A stretch of DNA of 37,852 nt. Source: Methylococcales bacterium (GTDB lineage Bacteria; Pseudomonadota; Gammaproteobacteria; Methylococcales; Methylomonadaceae). The stretch is taken from the NCBI GenBank assembly GCA_026398935.1, contig JAPLRW010000284.1:1-37852 (forward strand), read 5' to 3'. Numbering within the stretch: the first letter of the stretch is position 1; the number at the start of each line of letters is the position of its first letter. The notes under the pieces are model-generated. The model saw only the letters and a list, made by a program, of their open reading frames with translations. It was not told where the DNA came from and searched no databases. Positions 19,132-33,047 of this stretch are shown piece by piece. Both the position numbers and the translations under genes were made by a program.

Positions 19132-20595
19132 ATGGACTGTATTTGCGTGCGTTTTAAACTATTTTTATTTATTGCTTCTATGCTAATTAGCACTGTACTT
19201 CAAGCCGACACGCTGGATACTCAGTCACCCAAAAGGAACAATTTTTCCATGATGGGCGCACTATCGGATTGGGATTTACATGATCTGCAAGATGAAAGCT
19301 GGAACGCCTATGCGCAAGCAACGTATATTTCAAGCTGGAAAAATGCTTTCCCTGCCCGTTACAGTAATTTGAACGGCACACCCAATTCGTTATCAGCCGA
19401 TGCAGAAAACGGCTTTACAGCAACATTTAGCGCCTATATGGGCTTGAAAGGTTGGCAAGGGGCAGAGTTTTACATCGTTCCTGAAATGATTTCAGAAGAA
19501 CCGCTTTCTGGGCTAAAAGGTTTGGGCGGCAGCATTCAAAATTTTGAATTACAAAAAAATGGCACAGCCAGTGCGACGTGGTATCGAGCTAGAGCCTTTT
19601 ATCGTCAAAGCGTGTCGTTAGGTGGCGTAGAACAGACGGTTGATTCCGGCCCCTTGCAATTAGCGGGAAGCGTTAACAGTCGCCGTGCAGTATTCACCGC
19701 TGGAAATCTAAGTGTCGTTGATATTTTTGATCAAAATAGCTATGCCGGTAACCTGCGGCAGCAATTTTTTAACATGGCTTTTATGACGCATGCTGCTTAT
19801 GATTTTGCAGCAGACGCTAGAGGCTATTCTTGGGGTTTGGTCGGTGAATTTTACTTTGATGATTGGGCATTTCGAGTTGGACGGTTTTTAACGCCAAAAA
19901 ATCCGAATGATTTACCGCTGGATTTTAGGTTTTTCACTTTTTATGGCGATCAGGCGGAATTAGTGCATAAGCACCGCCTAAATGGACAAGCAGGTGCGGC
20001 AAGGTTGTTGGTGTACCGTAATCGTGAAAATGCTGGGCGTTGGAGTGATGCGATTGCCGCCTATCAGTCCAATCCTGCACAGAATGCGACCACTTGTACC
20101 GGTTTTAGTTATGATTCCAATAACGCTTCTGCGCCTGATCTTTGTTGGGCGCGGCAACCCACCATTAAAATGGGCATAGGGCTTAACCTGGAACAGGCGC
20201 TAACGGACGACATTGGCGTATTTTTTAGGGGCATGGTTTCTGATGGTCAGTCGGAAGTGTATTCCTATACCTCTTCGGATCGATCATTATCGTTTGGATT
20301 GTCCATGACAGGATTACGTTGGGGAAGAGCGCAAGATGGTTTTGGCATTGGCTATGCGCAAAGCTGGATTTCAAATCAACACGCGCAGTACCTTAATATG
20401 GGAGGGATTGATGGCTTTATCGGCGATGGAAAAATAACGGTGAAACCTGAACGTGTTGTTGACCTGTATTACAAATTACATCTTATGTCATCGACTTGGA
20501 TATCGGTTGACTACCAACACATTGCTAATCCTGCTTATAACGCTGACCGTGGTCCGGTGGATATTTTCGGTTGCAGAGCGCATTTTGAGTTTTAA
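19132..20595 (+). CDS. OprB-family carbohydrate-selective outer-membrane porin
   Basis: A 487-residue predicted outer-membrane beta-barrel. The N-terminus has a signal peptide (cut near V-L-Q-A-D, residue ~25), and the chain ends in the aromatic C-terminal Phe typical of barrel proteins (R-A-H-F-E-F). Alternating polar/aromatic strands run throughout. Stretches such as S-W-N-A-Y-A-Q-A-T-Y-I, the central W-G-L-V-G-E-F-Y-F-D-D-W-A-F-R-V-G-R-F and E-R-V-V-D-L-Y-Y-K fit the OprB carbohydrate porin family. OprB porins admit sugars in Pseudomonas; many non-sugar users also carry homologues, so the substrate is not known. ATG 19132 is accepted although its ribosome binding site is poor (AAAGGG is ~17 bp away). 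The gene stands alone between a terminator and a hairpin. Confidence 0.82.
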   Translation: MDCICVRFKLFLFIASMLISTVLQADTLDTQSPKRNNFSMMGALSDWDLHDLQDESWNAYAQATYISSWKNAFPARYSNLNGTPNSLSADAENGFTATFSAYMGLKGWQGAEFYIVPEMISEEPLSGLKGLGGSIQNFELQKNGTASATWYRARAFYRQSVSLGGVEQTVDSGPLQLAGSVNSRRAVFTAGNLSVVDIFDQNSYAGNLRQQFFNMAFMTHAAYDFAADARGYSWGLVGEFYFDDWAFRVGRFLTPKNPNDLPLDFRFFTFYGDQAELVHKHRLNGQAGAARLLVYRNRENAGRWSDAIAAYQSNPAQNATTCTGFSYDSNNASAPDLCWARQPTIKMGIGLNLEQALTDDIGVFFRGMVSDGQSEVYSYTSSDRSLSFGLSMTGLRWGRAQDGFGIGYAQSWISNQHAQYLNMGGIDGFIGDGKITVKPERVVDLYYKLHLMSSTWISVDYQHIANPAYNADRGPVDIFGCRAHFEF

Positions 20596-23223: not shown

Positions 23224-24525
23224 ATGTTAAAACTTAACACTGTGTTAAATGTAGTTCTCGCGTTATCGGTGCTAGCAACACCCGCACCGCACGCAGAAAT
23301 CGCTCCCCCAGATGATAAAAATATCGCCATGACTGAACAACAGGTCATTGCGATGTTTTATCAGCGTAATCTGGATTTAATCGCCGCTCACTTCAATATC
23401 GACGTCGCACAGGCACAAGAAGTCATTGCGGCAGCCATTCCAAATCCGGTGTTTAGCTTTAATATATCTTCGTTAAGCCCGGAAATATTTAAAAATTCAA
23501 ACAGTAACCAAACAGCATTGCCGGCCATATCGCCACAACTATCACAACTCATCGAAACAGCAGGGAAGCGCCGCTTACGCATTGAAAGCAGCGAATTGGC
23601 GACGGAAGCGGTGACGTTCGATTTACAAGACACTTTGCGCACCTTAACCAATGCCGTGCGCCATGATTATTACACGTTATTGCTGACGCAAAAGACCGAG
23701 CAAATGGTCAGTGATAACGTAAAACGCTATCAAGATATTCTAAAGGTGAATCGCATCCGCTTGAAAACCGGCGATATTGCTGAAACCGACTATACCCGCA
23801 TTGAAGTGGAAAGTCTGAAAGTGCAAGCGGATCTGGATCAAGCACACGCGGCTTTAAAGCAAGCGCGCGCTGCGTTATTGCTGTTGCTGGGGTGGCCGGA
23901 AAACAAGCTGGATATTGTCGCCGTCGAGGCGTGGCCAAAAGCGACACCGACGATAACCCACGCCAAACAAGAGCAATTGGTTAAACAAGCGCTGGAGCGT
24001 CGACCCGATTTGCAAGCCGCCCGCATCCGTATTGCACAAGCGCAAAAGATGTTGACGCTGGCTAATCGGTTGACCATCCCTGATGTTACCGTTAGCGCCT
24101 ATTACCAACGTGATCCCGGCAATTACTTCACTGACAGCGCGGGCGTTGGTATCAGCGTACCGTTACCGTTGTTTTATCGGCAAGAGGGGGAGATTTCTCA
24201 AGCGCGCGTTGGCGTTAGCTCGGCGGAGCTGGTTCTTACGCAAACTGAACAAACCATTCATAGCGATATTATGCAAGCCTTGGCAGCTTGGCAAGGTGCG
24301 GATGCTATTGCCCAGCGTTTTGAAACACTGGTAGTAACCCGTATTGAAACGTTACGTAAAGAACAGGAATTTGCGTATGAAAATGGTGCTATAGGCTTAC
24401 TGGATTTAATTGATGCCGAAAGGAGTTACAAAGCCATGATGCTGGATTATTACACCGCACTGGCCAATCGCAGTAATGCGTGGGCTGACTTGTTAATGGC
24501 ATATGGCGAAGAAGTTAAACGATGA
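23224..24525 (+). CDS. TolC-family outer-membrane channel of an HME-RND pump (CzcC/CusC-like)
   Basis: The outer-membrane component of a tripartite efflux pump. The 433-residue protein has a signal peptide (to about residue 24) and long helical coiled-coil segments in two related halves, as in all TolC-family proteins. Examples are M-F-Y-Q-R-N-L-D-L-I-A-A-H near the start, R-L-K-T-G-D-I-A-E-T-D in the first half, and the matching E-N-G-A-I-G-L-L-D-L-I-D-A-E-R-S near the end. The position before adaptor and pump genes makes it a CzcC-type subunit. Its stop overlaps the adaptor start (ATGA at 24522-24525), so the two are translationally coupled. The start ATG at 23224 has only a weak ribosome binding site. 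The metal exported cannot be read from the sequence. Confidence 0.9.
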   Translation: MLKLNTVLNVVLALSVLATPAPHAEIAPPDDKNIAMTEQQVIAMFYQRNLDLIAAHFNIDVAQAQEVIAAAIPNPVFSFNISSLSPEIFKNSNSNQTALPAISPQLSQLIETAGKRRLRIESSELATEAVTFDLQDTLRTLTNAVRHDYYTLLLTQKTEQMVSDNVKRYQDILKVNRIRLKTGDIAETDYTRIEVESLKVQADLDQAHAALKQARAALLLLLGWPENKLDIVAVEAWPKATPTITHAKQEQLVKQALERRPDLQAARIRIAQAQKMLTLANRLTIPDVTVSAYYQRDPGNYFTDSAGVGISVPLPLFYRQEGEISQARVGVSSAELVLTQTEQTIHSDIMQALAAWQGADAIAQRFETLVVTRIETLRKEQEFAYENGAIGLLDLIDAERSYKAMMLDYYTALANRSNAWADLLMAYGEEVKR

Positions 24526-25688
24526 ACGGGAAATATCTAACCATGCAACAAGTCATTATCGGACTGTTATGTTTACTGCTCTTGGCTTGTCAGGCGGAAG
24601 AAAAAATACTGCCTAAAAAAAGCATTGCTTTGCCTGAAAACGAAGTCTTGCTGAGTCCTGCATCACCCAAGCGTGCCTATATTAAAGAGGCCATTGTTGA
24701 ATTAGTGCAGCGTCCTTTAATGGATCCCGTTACCGGTAAAATTGCGTATGATGAAACGCATACTGCGCGGGTTAGCTCGCCTATCGCTGGACGTGTCGTC
24801 GAGATTAATACGGCATTAGGCGCAAAAATTCAAGCGGGCACGGTTTTAGCCGTACTGGATAGCCCGGAGTTGGGGCAGGCGCAAGCCGATTATGCTGATG
24901 CGTTAGCGGACTTGAGCCTCGCCAATCGTGCGTTGCAACGTCAGCAAGATCTTTTTAGTCATGGTATTGTGCCGCGTAAAGACCTTGAACAAGCGCAAGA
25001 TGCTATAACGCGTGCGCGCAGTGAAGCCGATCGCGCCAAACTAAAACTGGGTAATCTCGGCGTACAGAATGATCGCACCGATAATCGTTTTGCGTTACAC
25101 GCGCCTATTTCTGGCGTGGTTACTGAGCGAGCGATTAACCCCGGTATGGAAGTCAGGCCGGATTTAGCCGAGCCATTATTTGTGATTGCCGATCTAAAGA
25201 GTCTTTGGTTGCAAATGGATATTTTTGAGAAAGATTTGGGGCTAATCCATGTCGGCGCAAAAGTATTACTCACGGTGCCTGCTTACCCGAATCAGGTCTT
25301 TACGGCGACCGTCAGTTACATTAACCAAGTGCTGGATGAAAGTACGCGAACGGTAAAAGTACGCTGTATGCTACCGAACCCTGATGGGCGTTTGTTACCC
25401 GCCATGTTTGCCGCTGTTGACGTACAAAGTGATCCGAATGATAAGGCGGTTGTAGCCCCTTTAACCGCATTGTTTACGGAAGATGAATCAGACTGGTTGT
25501 TTGTTGCCATTGGTGATGGGCATTATCAAAAACGCCCCGTCAAAGCCGGACTGCGTCTAAAAGATAAAGTAGTCATTGCAGAAGGTCTGCACGCAGGTGA
25601 GCGCTTAGTCATAGACGGTGCATTACTGTTGCGCACAGAAGAAGACACCGAACAGGAAGGGCAGGATGCCGGAGCCAGTCAACCATGA
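24522..25688 (+). CDS. RND periplasmic adaptor lipoprotein (CzcB/CusB-like)
   Basis: The membrane-fusion subunit that bridges the pump and the outer-membrane channel. The N-terminus is a lipoprotein signal with lipobox L-L-A-C (Cys23, counted from ATG 24522; the ATG at 24543 is also possible). The rest shows the usual adaptor order: a lipoyl/barrel-sandwich half (A-R-V-S-S-P-I-A-G-R-V-V-E-I near residue 82), a helical hairpin rich in Ala/Gln (L-G-Q-A-Q-A-D-Y-A-D-A-L-A-D-L), the second lipoyl half (H-A-P-I-S-G-V-V-T-E-R), and a beta-barrel and membrane-proximal domain. There is no extended His/Met-rich metal-binding domain. It overlaps both neighbours by four bases (ATGA). Confidence 0.9.
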   Translation: MNGKYLTMQQVIIGLLCLLLLACQAEEKILPKKSIALPENEVLLSPASPKRAYIKEAIVELVQRPLMDPVTGKIAYDETHTARVSSPIAGRVVEINTALGAKIQAGTVLAVLDSPELGQAQADYADALADLSLANRALQRQQDLFSHGIVPRKDLEQAQDAITRARSEADRAKLKLGNLGVQNDRTDNRFALHAPISGVVTERAINPGMEVRPDLAEPLFVIADLKSLWLQMDIFEKDLGLIHVGAKVLLTVPAYPNQVFTATVSYINQVLDESTRTVKVRCMLPNPDGRLLPAMFAAVDVQSDPNDKAVVAPLTALFTEDESDWLFVAIGDGHYQKRPVKAGLRLKDKVVIAEGLHAGERLVIDGALLLRTEEDTEQEGQDAGASQP

Positions 25689-28600
25689 TTAATCACATCA
25701 TCACGTTTTGTTTACAGCAGCGATTGCTAGTGATCGGTGCGTCACTGGTATTGGCGGTTATTGGCATCGTTTCGTTCGAACGTTTGCCGGTACAGGCATT
25801 TCCTGATGTGCAAAATGTCTTTGTGCAAGTCGTTACTCAATACCCCGGTCAAGCGCCAGAAGAAGTAGAAAAGCTCATTAGCTTGCCGATTGAAAAAGAA
25901 ATGAATGGTCTGCCGCATTTGATGAGTATGCGTTCGGTGTCTATTTTTGGCTTGTCGGTGGTTACCCTGACGTTTGACGATAATGCCGAAGATTATTTTT
26001 CGCGGCAGCAGGTCTTGGAGCGCTTACAAAATGTGAGTTTGCCTAACGAAGTAACGCCAGTATTGGGTCCGTTGACGACTGGCGTTGGTGAAATATTTCG
26101 TTACCGTATTGAAGCGCCAGGCATGCCGTTGGTCGAGCAACGTGCCATTGAAGACTGGCTCATCGAGCGGACACTCCGCTCCGTACAAGGGGTTGCGGAT
26201 GTTGCTTCTTTTGGTGGCGGGGTTAAACAATACCAAGTAGAGGTCGATCCTAATAAGCTTAAAGATTACCAGTTAACCTTACCGGATATTTACCAAGCCA
26301 TTGCCGCGAATAATGCCAATACCGGCGGTGGTTATATTGAGCATGGTTACGAAGCATTAGTGGTACGTGGCGCAGGGCTATTAAAAACGGCGGATGAAAT
26401 TGGCGGCATTGTGGTTGCCAGCCGTAATGGAACGTCTATTTTTGTTAAAAATATTGCAGATATTCACATCGGTCCACAGCCACGTAATGGTATTGTCGGC
26501 TATAACGAGCGTGACGATGTTGTCGAAGGTATCGTTTTGTTGATTAAGGGCAAAGATGCGATTGAAGTATTGCAGGGTGTAAAAGCAAAAATAGAGGATC
26601 TTAATCACCACGGACTTCCGCCGGGGGTCAAAATTGTTCCGATTTATGATCGAACCGACTTAGTCGAGCACACCGTGCATACGGTTGAACACAATATGCT
26701 GGAAGGTGCGGCACTGATTTTGACTATTTTGATCATTTTCCTACGTCGCGTGTTGGCGTCAGCAGTCGTGATTGTGGTCATTCCGTTATCTTTATTGTTC
26801 GCTTTTATTCTCATTAATGCTTGGGATATTTCCGCCAATCTGATTTCCTTAGGTGCCATCGACTTTGGCATTATTGTTGATAGTGCCGTGGTACTGGTCG
26901 AAGCCATTATGGTTAAAGTGACCTTGGAAATGAGCCAAAAAGCCAGCGTATTGCATATGCGGCAGTCCATGCTCATGACTGCCGCAGAAATGGCGCGGCC
27001 TATTTTGTTCTCAAAAGCCATCATCATTATTGCTTTTTTACCGATTTTTACCTTTCAACGGGTTGAAGCGAAAATATTTTCACCGATGGCGTTTACCTTG
27101 ACGTTTGCCTTGTTGGGGTCACTTATCATTAGTATGACCTTAGTGCCCGTGCTCTTAAGCTATTTAATTGGCCCTCGGCTAACGGAAGCGCACAACCCAC
27201 TGGTTGAAAGAATGGAGCGCAGCTATAAAGCATTATTGCAAGCGGTGCTGCGCCATCCGCGCCGCTTATTTGTTGGCGCAGGTCTCGCGTTGGTGTTGGC
27301 ATTGGCATCGACGCCGTTGATTGGTACTGAGTTTATGCCTAAGCTCGACGAAGGCAATATCTGGCTAACCATCACCTTGCCCACCCCGGTTTCATTAACC
27401 AAGGCGAAAGTGTTAGAACAAGATGTACGCGAACGCTTACGTGAGTTTAGTGATGCAAAATCTATTTTGACGCAATTAGGCAGGCCAGAAGATGGTACAG
27501 ACCCTAAGGGCTTTAATAACTTAGAGATTTTAATTGATCTCAAGCCTAAAGAGACTTGGCATTATGCCAGTAAAGATGCCTTAATCGAAGCCATGCAAAA
27601 ACGCTTGGATGCTTTTCCCGGCTTGCAATTTAATTTCTCGCAAGTGATTCAGGATAACGTGGAAGAAGCTATTTCCGGGGTTAAAGGTGAAATTGCCATT
27701 AAAATTTTTGGGGAAGATCTTAAAATACTCCAGGATAAAGCCAATCAAATTACCCATATTCTGCGTGCTATTCAAGGCGCTACGGATGTAGCTGCCGAGC
27801 AGCAATCCGGATTGGCGCAAATGGTGATTACGGTAGACCGCGCTAAAATTGCTCGCTACGGCATTAATGTTAACGCTGTAGAAGATGTTATCGCGATGGC
27901 TGTCGGTGGAAAAACCGCTACGCAAATGTTGGAAGGTGAACGTCGTTTTGATATTACCGTACGATTAGCCAGTACGGCGCGCGATTCTGTTGGTGCTATT
28001 GAAGATATTACGGTTTTATCGGCAACAGGTAGCCGTATTCCCTTGGCTGAGTTAGCGGATATTAAAGTAAATCAAGGTGCTTCACGGATCAGCCGAGAAG
28101 ATAACATGCGGCGTATTGCGATAAAATGTAACCTGATTGGGCGTGATCAAGGCAGCTTTGTGGCCGAAGCGCAGCAAAAAGTAGCGCAGCAAGTGGTATT
28201 GCAGCCCGGCTATCGCATCGTCTGGAGTGGGCAGTTTGAAAATCAGCAGCGGGCAATGAAACGCTTAGTGTTTATTGTTCCGATCAGTTTAATATTGATT
28301 TTTGTGCTGTTGTTTTGGGCTTTCCAGTCCCTCAAGAGTGCATCTTTAATCGTGATGAATGTGCCTTTCGCTATGATTGGCGGGTTAGTGGCATTACTGT
28401 TAACTGGCATTCATCTTAGTGTATCAGCGGCGGTGGGTTTCATTGCCCTCTTCGGTATTGCGGTACAAAACGGTGTTATTCTCTTAACGCAGATAAATCA
28501 TCTCCGACGGGAGGGCGTGCCATTAGGTGACGCCATCTTGCAAGGCTCGGTGAGTCGTTTGCGACCCGTGGTTATGACCGCATTAATGGCGATTCTTGGA

Positions 28601-28753
28601 TTAATGCCAGCGGCCTTATCCACCAGTGTTGGATCAGAAACCGCCAAGCCATTTGCCGTGGTTATTATTGGTGGACTGATTACCGCAACGTTATTAACCT
28701 TAACCATGTTACCCGCGCTTTACCGTAAATTTGAAGATCAACACGAAACCTGA
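25685..28753 (+). CDS. HME-RND heavy-metal efflux pump (CzcA/CusA family)
   Basis: The inner-membrane proton-driven pump (1022 residues). The N-terminus carries the RND pattern R-L-P-V-Q-A-F-P-D-V and later Y-P-G-Q-A-P-E-E-V-E. Transmembrane helix 4 has G-A-I-D-F-G-I-I-V-D-S-A-V-V-L-V-E, giving Asp393, Asp399 and Glu406. These correspond to the proton-relay residues Asp402, Asp408 and Glu415 of CzcA, and place it in the divalent-metal (HME) branch rather than the drug branch. Two large periplasmic loops and 12 membrane helices are expected. Other RND landmarks include G-T-E-F-M-P-K-L-D-E-G and G-R-P-E-D-G-T-D. The gene overlaps the adaptor by ATGA and is followed 9 bp later by the PII-like gene. 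Whether the metal is Co/Zn/Cd, Ni or Cu/Ag is not decided by what I can see. Confidence 0.93.
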   Translation: MINHIITFCLQQRLLVIGASLVLAVIGIVSFERLPVQAFPDVQNVFVQVVTQYPGQAPEEVEKLISLPIEKEMNGLPHLMSMRSVSIFGLSVVTLTFDDNAEDYFSRQQVLERLQNVSLPNEVTPVLGPLTTGVGEIFRYRIEAPGMPLVEQRAIEDWLIERTLRSVQGVADVASFGGGVKQYQVEVDPNKLKDYQLTLPDIYQAIAANNANTGGGYIEHGYEALVVRGAGLLKTADEIGGIVVASRNGTSIFVKNIADIHIGPQPRNGIVGYNERDDVVEGIVLLIKGKDAIEVLQGVKAKIEDLNHHGLPPGVKIVPIYDRTDLVEHTVHTVEHNMLEGAALILTILIIFLRRVLASAVVIVVIPLSLLFAFILINAWDISANLISLGAIDFGIIVDSAVVLVEAIMVKVTLEMSQKASVLHMRQSMLMTAAEMARPILFSKAIIIIAFLPIFTFQRVEAKIFSPMAFTLTFALLGSLIISMTLVPVLLSYLIGPRLTEAHNPLVERMERSYKALLQAVLRHPRRLFVGAGLALVLALASTPLIGTEFMPKLDEGNIWLTITLPTPVSLTKAKVLEQDVRERLREFSDAKSILTQLGRPEDGTDPKGFNNLEILIDLKPKETWHYASKDALIEAMQKRLDAFPGLQFNFSQVIQDNVEEAISGVKGEIAIKIFGEDLKILQDKANQITHILRAIQGATDVAAEQQSGLAQMVITVDRAKIARYGINVNAVEDVIAMAVGGKTATQMLEGERRFDITVRLASTARDSVGAIEDITVLSATGSRIPLAELADIKVNQGASRISREDNMRRIAIKCNLIGRDQGSFVAEAQQKVAQQVVLQPGYRIVWSGQFENQQRAMKRLVFIVPISLILIFVLLFWAFQSLKSASLIVMNVPFAMIGGLVALLLTGIHLSVSAAVGFIALFGIAVQNGVILLTQINHLRREGVPLGDAILQGSVSRLRPVVMTALMAILGLMPAALSTSVGSETAKPFAVVIIGGLITATLLTLTMLPALYRKFEDQHET

Positions 28754-28762
28754 GAGAGACTC

Positions 28763-29089
28763 ATGAAAGAAATTCGCGCGTATATACAGCCGTTTATGCT
28801 GTCCAAGCTCACGCAAGCTTTACTTGAAATTCCAGGCTTTCCGGGCATGAGTATTTCACATTGTGAAGGCTTCGGACGTACACGAGCCATTGAAAATCAG
28901 AATTACACACCTTTCATTGCGAAAACCCGTATTGAGATTTTCACCCCTGATGAATTAGTGGAAGCTATTTTTAATGCGGTCATGCTGGCGGCGAATACCC
29001 ATCAACATGGCGCGGGTAAGGTTTATATCATGGATGTCATAGAAGGCGGGCGTATCTGTAGCAGTCAGCGGGGGGAGGAGATTGCGTAG
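28763..29089 (+). CDS. PII-like protein of a heavy-metal efflux operon (PII-NG type)
   Basis: A 108-residue PII-fold protein. The alignment to GlnB is visible at the start (M-K-E-I-R-A-Y-I-Q-P-F-M-L-S-K-L-T-Q-A-L), at G-M-S-I-S-H-C-E-G-F-G-R, and at the end of the core (G-A-G-K-V-Y-I-M-D-V-I-E-G-G-R-I). The T-loop region is short and lacks the Y-R-G-A-E-Y uridylylation motif of GlnB. So it should not be a nitrogen-signalling PII. A PII group linked to CzcA/CusA-type pump genes has been described (PII-NG, Sant'Anna and colleagues); the position 9 bp after the pump gene fits it. Its ligand and target are unknown; a regulator of the pump is the obvious guess. GAGAGAC just before the ATG is the ribosome binding site. 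Confidence 0.85.
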   Translation: MKEIRAYIQPFMLSKLTQALLEIPGFPGMSISHCEGFGRTRAIENQNYTPFIAKTRIEIFTPDELVEAIFNAVMLAANTHQHGAGKVYIMDVIEGGRICSSQRGEEIA

Positions 29090-30754: not shown

Positions 30755-32434
30755 CTAAACGTAATAGTCATAACGATTTGACGGTGTATTTTTTTGAGCG
30801 TCAAGCACGGCATCGGCTACGCTCCAAAAGAGCTTGTCTTGAAAATGCACCGCAGCCAGTTCCAGTAATAATTGCCGTATTGGATCTTTGACGCGCGCTA
30901 ATAACAAGCGTTTATTTTGGCGTTTAAGATCATCAGCCAGTTCAATTAAACATTCAGCCGTCGTGCTGTCAATATTGGTGCTTTGTTCAAGGCTGATAAT
31001 GAGTGTTTCCGCTGCATTGCCTAGCGCTAAACAGCGGTGTATTTCGGTGACAATGCCTTCGACGTTGGCAAAAAATAATGGCTCGTCAGGACGAAGAATC
31101 AGTAGATTTGGGTGAGGCAGGGCATTGGGATGATTTGCTCTATCCACATAATCACGCGATTGATCCAGTTCGGCCAGTTCTCTGACCATCGGCTGACTAA
31201 AGGCGCGTATCGCGGCGGCTAATGACAAGCCTACGCCAATCAACATACCATGTAACACGCCAAATGCTAACACGGCGATAATGGCGGCTAACGCTAGGTA
31301 TTGATCACGATTTATTCGCCAAAGGTGTAGCAGTGACTTGGGGTTTAAGGCATGGCTTAAGGCATTGATAACTGCGGCGGCAACGATGGGTTCTGGAATC
31401 AGTGCCATGTAACCTTGTCCAAAAATGACCATTAACAGTAATAAACTTGCCGCAATCGCTCCCGCCCATTTGCTTTGCGCGCCCGCTTGCTCATTCGCCG
31501 TGCTGGCCGAAAATCCTGCGCCTACGGGCATTCCTTGTAGTAATCCTGATATAAAATTGGCCGTGCCCAGTGCAAATAACTCACGATTGGGTTCTACAAC
31601 ATTGCCATGATTCAGTGAAATGCTGCGAATACTGCCCCATGATTCGGCAACGATGATAACCATTAAGCCACACGCTACCTCTGCTAATTGCAACCATTTT
31701 TCCAATGGTAGTTGTGGCAGGCTTAAACTGGGTGGTTTAATGAGAACGGCACCGACAATCTCTACCTGTAAGTTGGCAAGATTCACCACATTGCTTAAGC
31801 TGATTCCTAAAAGCAACACTACGAAAGCGCCCGGTATTGCAGGCCAGCGTTTTAAAACCCATAACAGCATCAGTGCGCCGCAACCCATTACGGTACTCCA
31901 AAGTGAGTATTCTTGCGCGTGTTTGGCTAATTCAATAATGATTCGGAGTGGATCGGGCGCATGGACTGGAATGCCGAGGATGATGGGTAATTGTTTGGTG
32001 ATGATGGTTATTGCCAATGCAAATGAAAATCCATGCAACACCGGTCGTGATACAAATGCGGATAGTCGCCCCAGTCCTGCTTTCGATACGGCTAACAAGA
32101 CAATGCCCGTTAAAATGACTAAGGCAAACCCTAAATTTGCCGCCGCAGATACATCCACTGGATGCAAAGATAACACCACTGCCGCCATAAGTGCCGCCGC
32201 GGATGACGTCGGGGCGACAATAGCAAATTGACTCCCTCCCAGCCAAGCGTAAGTAAGTAAACCCACTAATACTGCCGTAATGGCGTGTTGAATAGTAAGG
32301 TGCGCAATGGCCGCATAAGCCACCGCTTCCGGCAGTAAAATACTGGCGACCGATAAGCCCGCCACGACATCGGCAAACAAGACCGCCTTAGGCAGTGGAA
32401 AAAGCGGGGACTTTCCGAGTAAATTAGAGTTCAC
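30755..32434 (-). CDS. SulP-family inorganic anion transporter with C-terminal STAS domain
   Basis: An inner-membrane transporter of about 560 residues, likely carrying sulfate, bicarbonate or a related anion; the substrate cannot be told from sequence. The N-terminal signature D-V-V-A-G-L-S-V-A-S-I-L-L-P-E-A-V-A-Y-A matches SulP helix 1. About 11-14 membrane segments follow, and then a cytoplasmic STAS domain (last ~110 residues, with E-Q-S-T-N-I-D-S-T-T-A-E-C-L). The gene overlaps the ParB-like gene upstream by 11 bp if GTG 32434 is used; a GTG at 32473 would add 13 residues and a 50-bp overlap. Neither has a good ribosome binding site, so translational coupling is likely. HdeD-like gene follows 60 bp on. 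Confidence 0.88.
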   Translation of the reverse strand: MNSNLLGKSPLFPLPKAVLFADVVAGLSVASILLPEAVAYAAIAHLTIQHAITAVLVGLLTYAWLGGSQFAIVAPTSSAAALMAAVVLSLHPVDVSAAANLGFALVILTGIVLLAVSKAGLGRLSAFVSRPVLHGFSFALAITIITKQLPIILGIPVHAPDPLRIIIELAKHAQEYSLWSTVMGCGALMLLWVLKRWPAIPGAFVVLLLGISLSNVVNLANLQVEIVGAVLIKPPSLSLPQLPLEKWLQLAEVACGLMVIIVAESWGSIRSISLNHGNVVEPNRELFALGTANFISGLLQGMPVGAGFSASTANEQAGAQSKWAGAIAASLLLLMVIFGQGYMALIPEPIVAAAVINALSHALNPKSLLHLWRINRDQYLALAAIIAVLAFGVLHGMLIGVGLSLAAAIRAFSQPMVRELAELDQSRDYVDRANHPNALPHPNLLILRPDEPLFFANVEGIVTEIHRCLALGNAAETLIISLEQSTNIDSTTAECLIELADDLKRQNKRLLLARVKDPIRQLLLELAAVHFQDKLFWSVADAVLDAQKNTPSNRYDYYV

Positions 32435-33047
32435 TGTCGTTGTGCTCGCTCCAGCCGGGTAAGTGTGCGGCACTGGGGCTATGCGCCAGTGTTAATGCTT
32501 TTTGGAGAGCCACTTCGGGCTCGTCCTTTACCAGCGTTATGTTAACGCGGCGGCGAAAGAAATCTGCCCATAAAAACTCAGCGAAGGGTGTAGCGTCTTT
32601 GACATAAGCGCCTGCGTGACGTGCAGCACCCGCTAAGCTACGATAAGGGTCGTCTTCAAGCTGTACTATTTTCTTAGGAATATCGCTTAATTCTCGGCGT
32701 TTGCCCTGTGCATCATACGGATGCAACCATTGATGATGTTCCATGACTAGCCAAAACTCATCGACATCCAATTGGGAGAAATCTTTAAGGACGATCAGGT
32801 GTGTGTGCTCAACCTCTTCTTCCAGTAGCGCCATTCCTAAATGATGATGGTCAATAATGTAATGGTGCGCATTAGGCCCTAATACGCCGGGAAACCAGTG
32901 GTCAGCAAGGAAATCTTTACGTTCTTTATGTTTAAGGTGTTGCCAGGTCATTTTTTTTGCCTGTACTTCCGCATAGCCAACGGTCATTTGTGTTGGGCGT
33001 AAGCTGTCTAAGTCAACTTTGACTAAATGTTGTTTTTTAGCATCCAT
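32424..33047 (-). CDS. ParB-like-fold protein (ParBc_2 family)
   Basis: A 207-residue soluble protein with a ParB/Sulfiredoxin-like N-terminal region. The opening L-V-K-V-D-L-D-S-L-R-P-T-Q-M-T-V-G-Y-A-E-V and the H-H-Y-I-I-D-H-H-H-L-G-M-A-L segment match the ParBc_2 (PF08857) group of putative ParB-like nucleases. It is not the chromosome-partitioning ParB: it lacks a DNA-binding helix-turn-helix half that I can recognise, and no parA or parS is nearby. The His-rich motif could bind nucleotide or metal, which is inference. Its coding end overlaps the SulP gene, so they form one unit. The relation of a ParB-like fold to an anion transporter is unexplained. Confidence 0.8.
   Translation of the reverse strand: MDAKKQHLVKVDLDSLRPTQMTVGYAEVQAKKMTWQHLKHKERKDFLADHWFPGVLGPNAHHYIIDHHHLGMALLEEEVEHTHLIVLKDFSQLDVDEFWLVMEHHQWLHPYDAQGKRRELSDIPKKIVQLEDDPYRSLAGAARHAGAYVKDATPFAEFLWADFFRRRVNITLVKDEPEVALQKALTLAHSPSAAHLPGWSEHNDSEL

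Follow-up and report, generated by a model that had tools for sequence, protein, structure and literature searches.

A CzcCBA-type metal-efflux operon of a Methylococcales bacterium with a PII-NG gene directly downstream of the pump gene

The 37,852-nt stretch of Methylococcales DNA analysed here (contig JAPLRW010000284.1, assembly GCA_026398935.1; hereafter the window) contains four closely spaced genes that make up a metal-efflux operon:

23224–24525, plus strand: czcC-type outer-membrane channel of the OEP/TolC family, 433 aa (Pfam OEP, 172 bits)
24522–25688, plus strand: czcB-type periplasmic adaptor, 388 aa (HlyD_D23, 173 bits; RND_mfp, 173 bits)
25685–28753, plus strand: czcA-type HME-RND pump, 1022 aa, TM4 motif DFGIIVDSAVVLVEA (TIGR00914, 1056 bits)
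28763–29089, plus strand: PII-NG-type protein, 108 aa, with a short T-loop (PF00543, 60 bits; tree, residues and model)

The families matched by the first three genes (OEP, HlyD_D23/RND_mfp and CusA/CzcA) agree with an earlier note on this DNA, which had read them as channel, adaptor and pump. The pump belongs to the HME-RND family, as evidenced by a score of 1056 bits against the curated CusA/CzcA cut-off of 701 (TIGR00914). The czcC stop and czcB start overlap by the 4 nt ATGA (24522–24525), as do the czcB stop and czcA start (25685–25688), and both overlaps had been described correctly. The N terminus of the adaptor resembles a lipoprotein signal (LLLLACQ). The gene described as PII-like does begin 9 nt past the czcA stop, after the spacer GAGAGACTC. 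A scan for promoters and terminators yielded nothing clearly above shuffled sequences.

The product of the fourth gene is a member of the PII superfamily, as indicated by its PF00543 score (60 bits, cut-off 25) and by fold matches. Its predicted model, with a pLDDT of 87 that falls to about 57 in the T-loop, matches solved PII proteins with a Foldseek E of about 1e-11, and the best 50 matches were all PII. In GlnB and GlnK, Gln39 is a ligand of 2-oxoglutarate and Tyr51 is the site of uridylylation. Both residues occur in 27/27 GlnB/K controls and in 0/114 czcA-linked rows; the window protein likewise has no equivalent of either, and carries Cys34 and His82. Given established PII biochemistry, this loss predicts that 2-oxoglutarate is not sensed and that no uridylylation occurs at Tyr51, and the protein probably does not signal nitrogen or carbon status. 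Most of the nucleotide loop is retained in the PII-NG relatives: G87 and G89 are present almost everywhere among the czcA-linked PIIs, K90 is found in 61/63 rows of the clade of methanotrophs and Nitrosospira, in 30/31 rows from other phyla and in 0/20 betaproteobacterial-type rows, while R101 occurs in 52/63 and R103 in only 5/63 of the methanotroph–Nitrosospira rows. With R103 largely missing from this clade and K90 from the betaproteobacterial branch, the ability to bind nucleotides may be reduced or gone; on these residues, binding is possible but not assured.

In a tree of 101 rows, 21 of them GlnB/K, a branch of length 0.88 with 100/100 support separates all czcA-linked PIIs from all GlnB/GlnK proteins; the few columns leave the inner forks rough, without affecting this branch. 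The grouping with GlnB/GlnK that the earlier note had named as a refutation was thus not observed. The row designated L070 carries czcA and groups with the czcA-linked PIIs, not with canonical GlnB/K. The genome contains four PF00543 genes: a GlnB/GlnK pair with canonical motifs, the window PII and one more. The fourth gene (L004:1-2261, contig C143) is clustered with two membrane genes, which we take to be of the DUF1538 type, and a CBS-pair-like gene.

A PII group linked to metal efflux, PII-NG, is attributed to Sant'Anna et al. (2009) in a later account (PMC7726332). The later paper places the Geobacter PII-NG GSU2134 in one operon with czcABC (GSU2135–2137), reports that cobalt induces this operon and excess iron lowers it, and proposes metal sensing (PMC7726332). 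The pairing of a metal pump with PII-NG is therefore already published, and the window operon is of a known kind. Like GSU2134, the window protein is a PF00543 member set apart from GlnB/GlnK and encoded with heavy-metal efflux genes in a CzcCBA-type operon, and the czcA-linked PIIs of Geobacteraceae, the family of GSU2134, fall in the same tree group. The assignment to the described metal-pump PII group, to which the earlier note pointed, fits, and we regard the identity of the window protein as PII-NG as almost certain.

The window protein differs from PII-NG as known from Sant'Anna et al. (2009) and GSU2134 in a T-loop five residues shorter and in Cys34 and His82, traits shared with its methanotroph and Nitrosospira relatives; its pump has the TM4 motif DFG..DSA..VEA versus SIG..DTT..VEN in the Geobacteraceae relatives. 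Between positions 39 and 58, the window PII has 13 residues, compared with 18 in 27/27 GlnB/K. The shortened T-loop reported earlier is therefore real in the window, but it is a trait of Methylococcales plus Nitrosospira; as a mark of the whole PII-NG group it was rejected, the 13-residue loop being nearly confined to this clade. Cys34 and His82 are present in 62/63 and 59/63 rows of the methanotroph–Nitrosospira clade, respectively, but in only 2/51 and 1/51 rows outside it, and the betaproteobacterial PII-NG branch has a Cys three residues on from position 34. A universal metal site in PII-NG was rejected, as the two residues are almost confined to one clade; within that clade they are candidate metal ligands.

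The Nitrosospira PIIs lie inside the nine-row tree clade of the window protein (99/94). The Nitrosospira CzcAs, including that of the isolate Nl12 (L090), are 77–81% identical to the window CzcA, with Methylomonas at 73%. Three Nitrosospira loci (L082, L089 and L090) have the methanotroph version of the czcCBA–PII operon, nested among Methylococcales. It seems that methane oxidisers and ammonia oxidisers have exchanged the operon as one unit by horizontal transfer.

Conserved gene order, the other point on which the earlier note had made its reading depend, was observed. Among loci fetched by PII similarity alone, czcA lies directly upstream in 32/32 checked loci of the family and class, and in 78/80 PII-NG loci overall (75 with czcA directly upstream and 3 with the czcA end at a contig edge). 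The 80 loci come from Methylococcales, Nitrosospira, Dechloromonas, Zoogloea, Geobacteraceae, Nitrospirota, Acidobacteriota, Bacteroidota, Ignavibacteriota, Verrucomicrobiota and others. The PII–czcA gap is 8–9 nt in 24/29 same-family loci, which, together with the 78/80, argues that the pairing is not due to chance. The very tight coupling claimed for the window thus stands as to its 9 nt, but such gaps are the norm for these operons, and a special tightness of the window was rejected. As to the two exceptions, L114 has no ORF of at least 70 codons in the 610 nt upstream of the PII gene, and on a Nitrospinota contig (L110:2-780) the PII-NG gene lies 14 nt after that of a CDF-type cation exporter in place of czcA, which indicates that the target is not always CzcA. 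Identities of PII and CzcA covary (Pearson 0.90, Spearman 0.65), which would agree with an interaction of the two, although the values are inflated by shared ancestry. In one locus (L080:1948-4103) a large deletion, which could be an assembly join, connects about 90 czcB codons to the last 108 of czcA; the PII gene there is intact.

When loci were fetched by CzcA similarity alone, 18/56 evaluable pumps had a PII-fold gene within about 40 nt past the czcA stop, mostly joined to it by an ATGA overlap. Most of these genes resemble DUF3240 (PF11582), and some score above the cut-offs of both DUF3240 and P-II. A further PF00543 subgroup (MKE[IV]KAF[IL]H...), strongly unlike both PII-NG and GlnB and often overlapping czcA by ATGA, was seen directly downstream of czcA in L160, L163, L164, L176 and L182. 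Among the 30 top-scoring HME pumps of the same family, 0/30 had a PII-fold neighbor within flanks of about 1.5 kb (some shorter), and most of them carry a CzcA-type DFG..DGA..VE or a CusA-like AIG..D(A/G)A..E motif. The pairing therefore belongs to certain pump lineages and not to HME pumps generally.

Exactly two pumps of the genome pass the HME cut-off, the window CzcA with its PII-NG and a second pump (C273:5946-9005, TM4 motif AIGMLVDAAVVVVEN), whose stop overlaps by ATGA the start of a gene for another PII-like protein:

L216:1489-1791 (contig C273), directly after pump C273:5946-9005: DUF3240 gene, PII-like fold, ATGA-coupled

A solved structure of DUF3240 (PF11582), 3ce8, is PII-like. 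The chance of a PII-fold gene lying so near a given pump is roughly estimated at 2e-4. DUF3240 accompanies an HME pump in 28/29 sampled loci from the class, including L250, where only a short pump fragment was found, at an uncertain distance. Like the window PII, DUF3240 proteins have a PII-like fold and about 100 aa and are encoded directly after an HME pump, but they form a different Pfam family, to which the window PII has no match. A profile comparison linked PII-NG, at 96% probability, to an alignment in which DUF3240 and bridging sequences were mixed; when two pure DUF3240 sequences were used by themselves, there was no significant match to PII-NG. A single sequence family of DUF3240 and PII-NG was rejected, the two being joined only through bridging sequences.

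TM4 motifs have been linked to substrate class in published schemes (PMC3637150; PMC7060636), and PII-NG accompanies several TM4 types: DFG..D(S/G)A..VEA in pumps of the window type, AIG..DGS..VEN in Dechloromonas and relatives, SIG..DTT..VEN in Geobacteraceae and some Nitrospirota, and DFG..DGS..IEN in Acidobacteriota. The metal is thus likely to vary among these pumps although all have a PII-NG partner, and this argues that the PII is directed at the pump itself and not at a particular metal. Among solved structures, the window pump comes closest to ZneA (861 bits, versus 613 for CusA), with Asp606, Glu614 and Asp657 of the window pump aligned with Asp602, Glu610 and Asp654 of ZneA, presumably its zinc ligands. 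This kinship, the aligned ligands and the DFG-type TM4 motif make a divalent cation our best guess for the substrate. Unlike this HME-RND zinc exporter (PDB 4k0e/4k0j), which has VEN in TM4, the window pump has VEA there and is accompanied by a PII protein.

The operon would yield a tripartite, proton-driven metal exporter of the CzcCBA type and, with it, a dedicated PII-fold protein. RND pumps are trimers. In a review, PII control of transporters seems restricted to those able to work as trimers (PMC10710835). By analogy with GlnK, which docks on AmtB, and SbtB, which docks on SbtA, the PII protein, made in step with CzcA, could form a homotrimer that attaches to the trimeric pump from the cytoplasmic side and there switches or throttles export in response to the adenine-nucleotide state and/or cytosolic metal. 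To such docking and gating, the reading we favour, we give nearly an even chance. It is supported by the linkage to czcA (32/32 and 78/80), the conserved 8–9-nt spacing, the 100/100 branch, the loss of Gln39 and Tyr51, and the coupling of DUF3240 to the only other HME pump of the genome and in 28/29 loci. GlnK–AmtB and SbtB–SbtA likewise pair a PII-fold trimer with a trimeric membrane transporter (PMC10710835), but they are uptake systems with demonstrated complexes, while the window encodes an exporter known here from sequence; AmtB and SbtA take up their substrates as channels or carriers and in this are unlike an RND exporter, which counts against the analogy. The possible weakening or loss of nucleotide binding and the PII-NG gene beside a CDF exporter also speak against this mechanism.

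The PII trimer might instead act as a cytosolic metal sensor or chaperone, binding metal at an inter-subunit cleft (Cys34/His82) and handing it to the pump or reporting its load to another regulator, with no nucleotide switch. The near constancy of both residues in the methanotroph–Nitrosospira clade is in line with this, as are the cobalt induction and proposed metal sensing in Geobacter (PMC7726332) and the PII-NG adjoining a CDF metal exporter. We consider it unlikely, though well worth keeping in mind: Cys34 and His82 are absent from most other PII-NGs, so that a metal site cannot be their shared function, and the comparable metal claim for CutA is disputed, to judge by the title of a paper cited in PMC10890737.

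It is rather improbable that the protein bypasses the pump, acting instead on, for instance, a transcription regulator or two-component system controlling the operon, and is encoded in the operon only for co-expression. Canonical PII proteins do have several kinds of targets, yet the gene stands constantly directly after czcA, not just anywhere in the operon, and among the window neighbors tested no conserved regulator gene lies beside it. An ordinary GlnB/GlnK-type nitrogen regulator, present in a metal operon by happenstance, would share the Pfam family and fold; this reading is largely refuted by the sequences and very improbable, given the long 100/100 branch, the loss of Gln39 and Tyr51 in 114/114 relatives and the genome's own GlnB/GlnK pair, and a nitrogen-type paralogue was rejected on tree and residues. 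Linkage alone is not function, and the covariation of identities (Pearson 0.90) partly reflects shared ancestry, but a passenger gene with no functional tie to the pump, kept beside it by chance or hitch-hiking, is scarcely credible where the linkage spans many phyla and several pump types and is repeated by a second PII-fold family.

Taking docking and gating further, PII-fold proteins may be a general accessory subunit of certain HME-RND exporters, with genes immediately following that of the pump. They would come from two or more Pfam families (PII-NG of PF00543 and DUF3240, PF11582) plus bridging forms, and act as trimer-on-trimer gates that tie export to the cytosolic state, with archetypal Czc/Cus pumps lacking them. 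This proposal is tentative and somewhat short of an even chance; if true, DUF3240 gains a function. The linkage already points to a role for this family of unknown function, on which nothing relevant was found in open papers. To our knowledge, no cytosolic subunit under effector control has been described for any RND metal exporter; what a 2023 review presents as RND modulators are small proteins, AcrZ and WatS1 among them (PMC10710835). If PII gates CzcA, the state of the cell would switch metal export within seconds and not only via gene expression. The Geobacter cobalt study (PMC7726332) was the only PII-NG literature found among open papers; in these, the 2009 PII-NG paper lying outside them, we found no description of how nearly universal the placement is, of the range of pump types, of another PII-fold family taking the same role within one genome, or of the absence from Czc- and Cus-type pumps. 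The constant pairing makes the long-open question of PII-NG function directly testable.

A conserved regulator beside the operon was rejected; what relatives share of the window flanks is mainly an OprB-family porin. In the window this porin gene (19132–20595) lies 2.6 kb upstream of czcC; in five Methylococcales loci a homologue directly follows the PII gene on the same strand (L083, 8357–9793; L091, 8541–9995; L096, 6532–7983; L099, 8623–10059; L024, 29–1447). The porin may be part of the metal-efflux cluster. Farther downstream in the window, on the minus strand, a gene for a SulP-type transporter with a STAS domain (30755–32473) is overlapped by a gene of the ParB-like family PF08857 (32424–33047).
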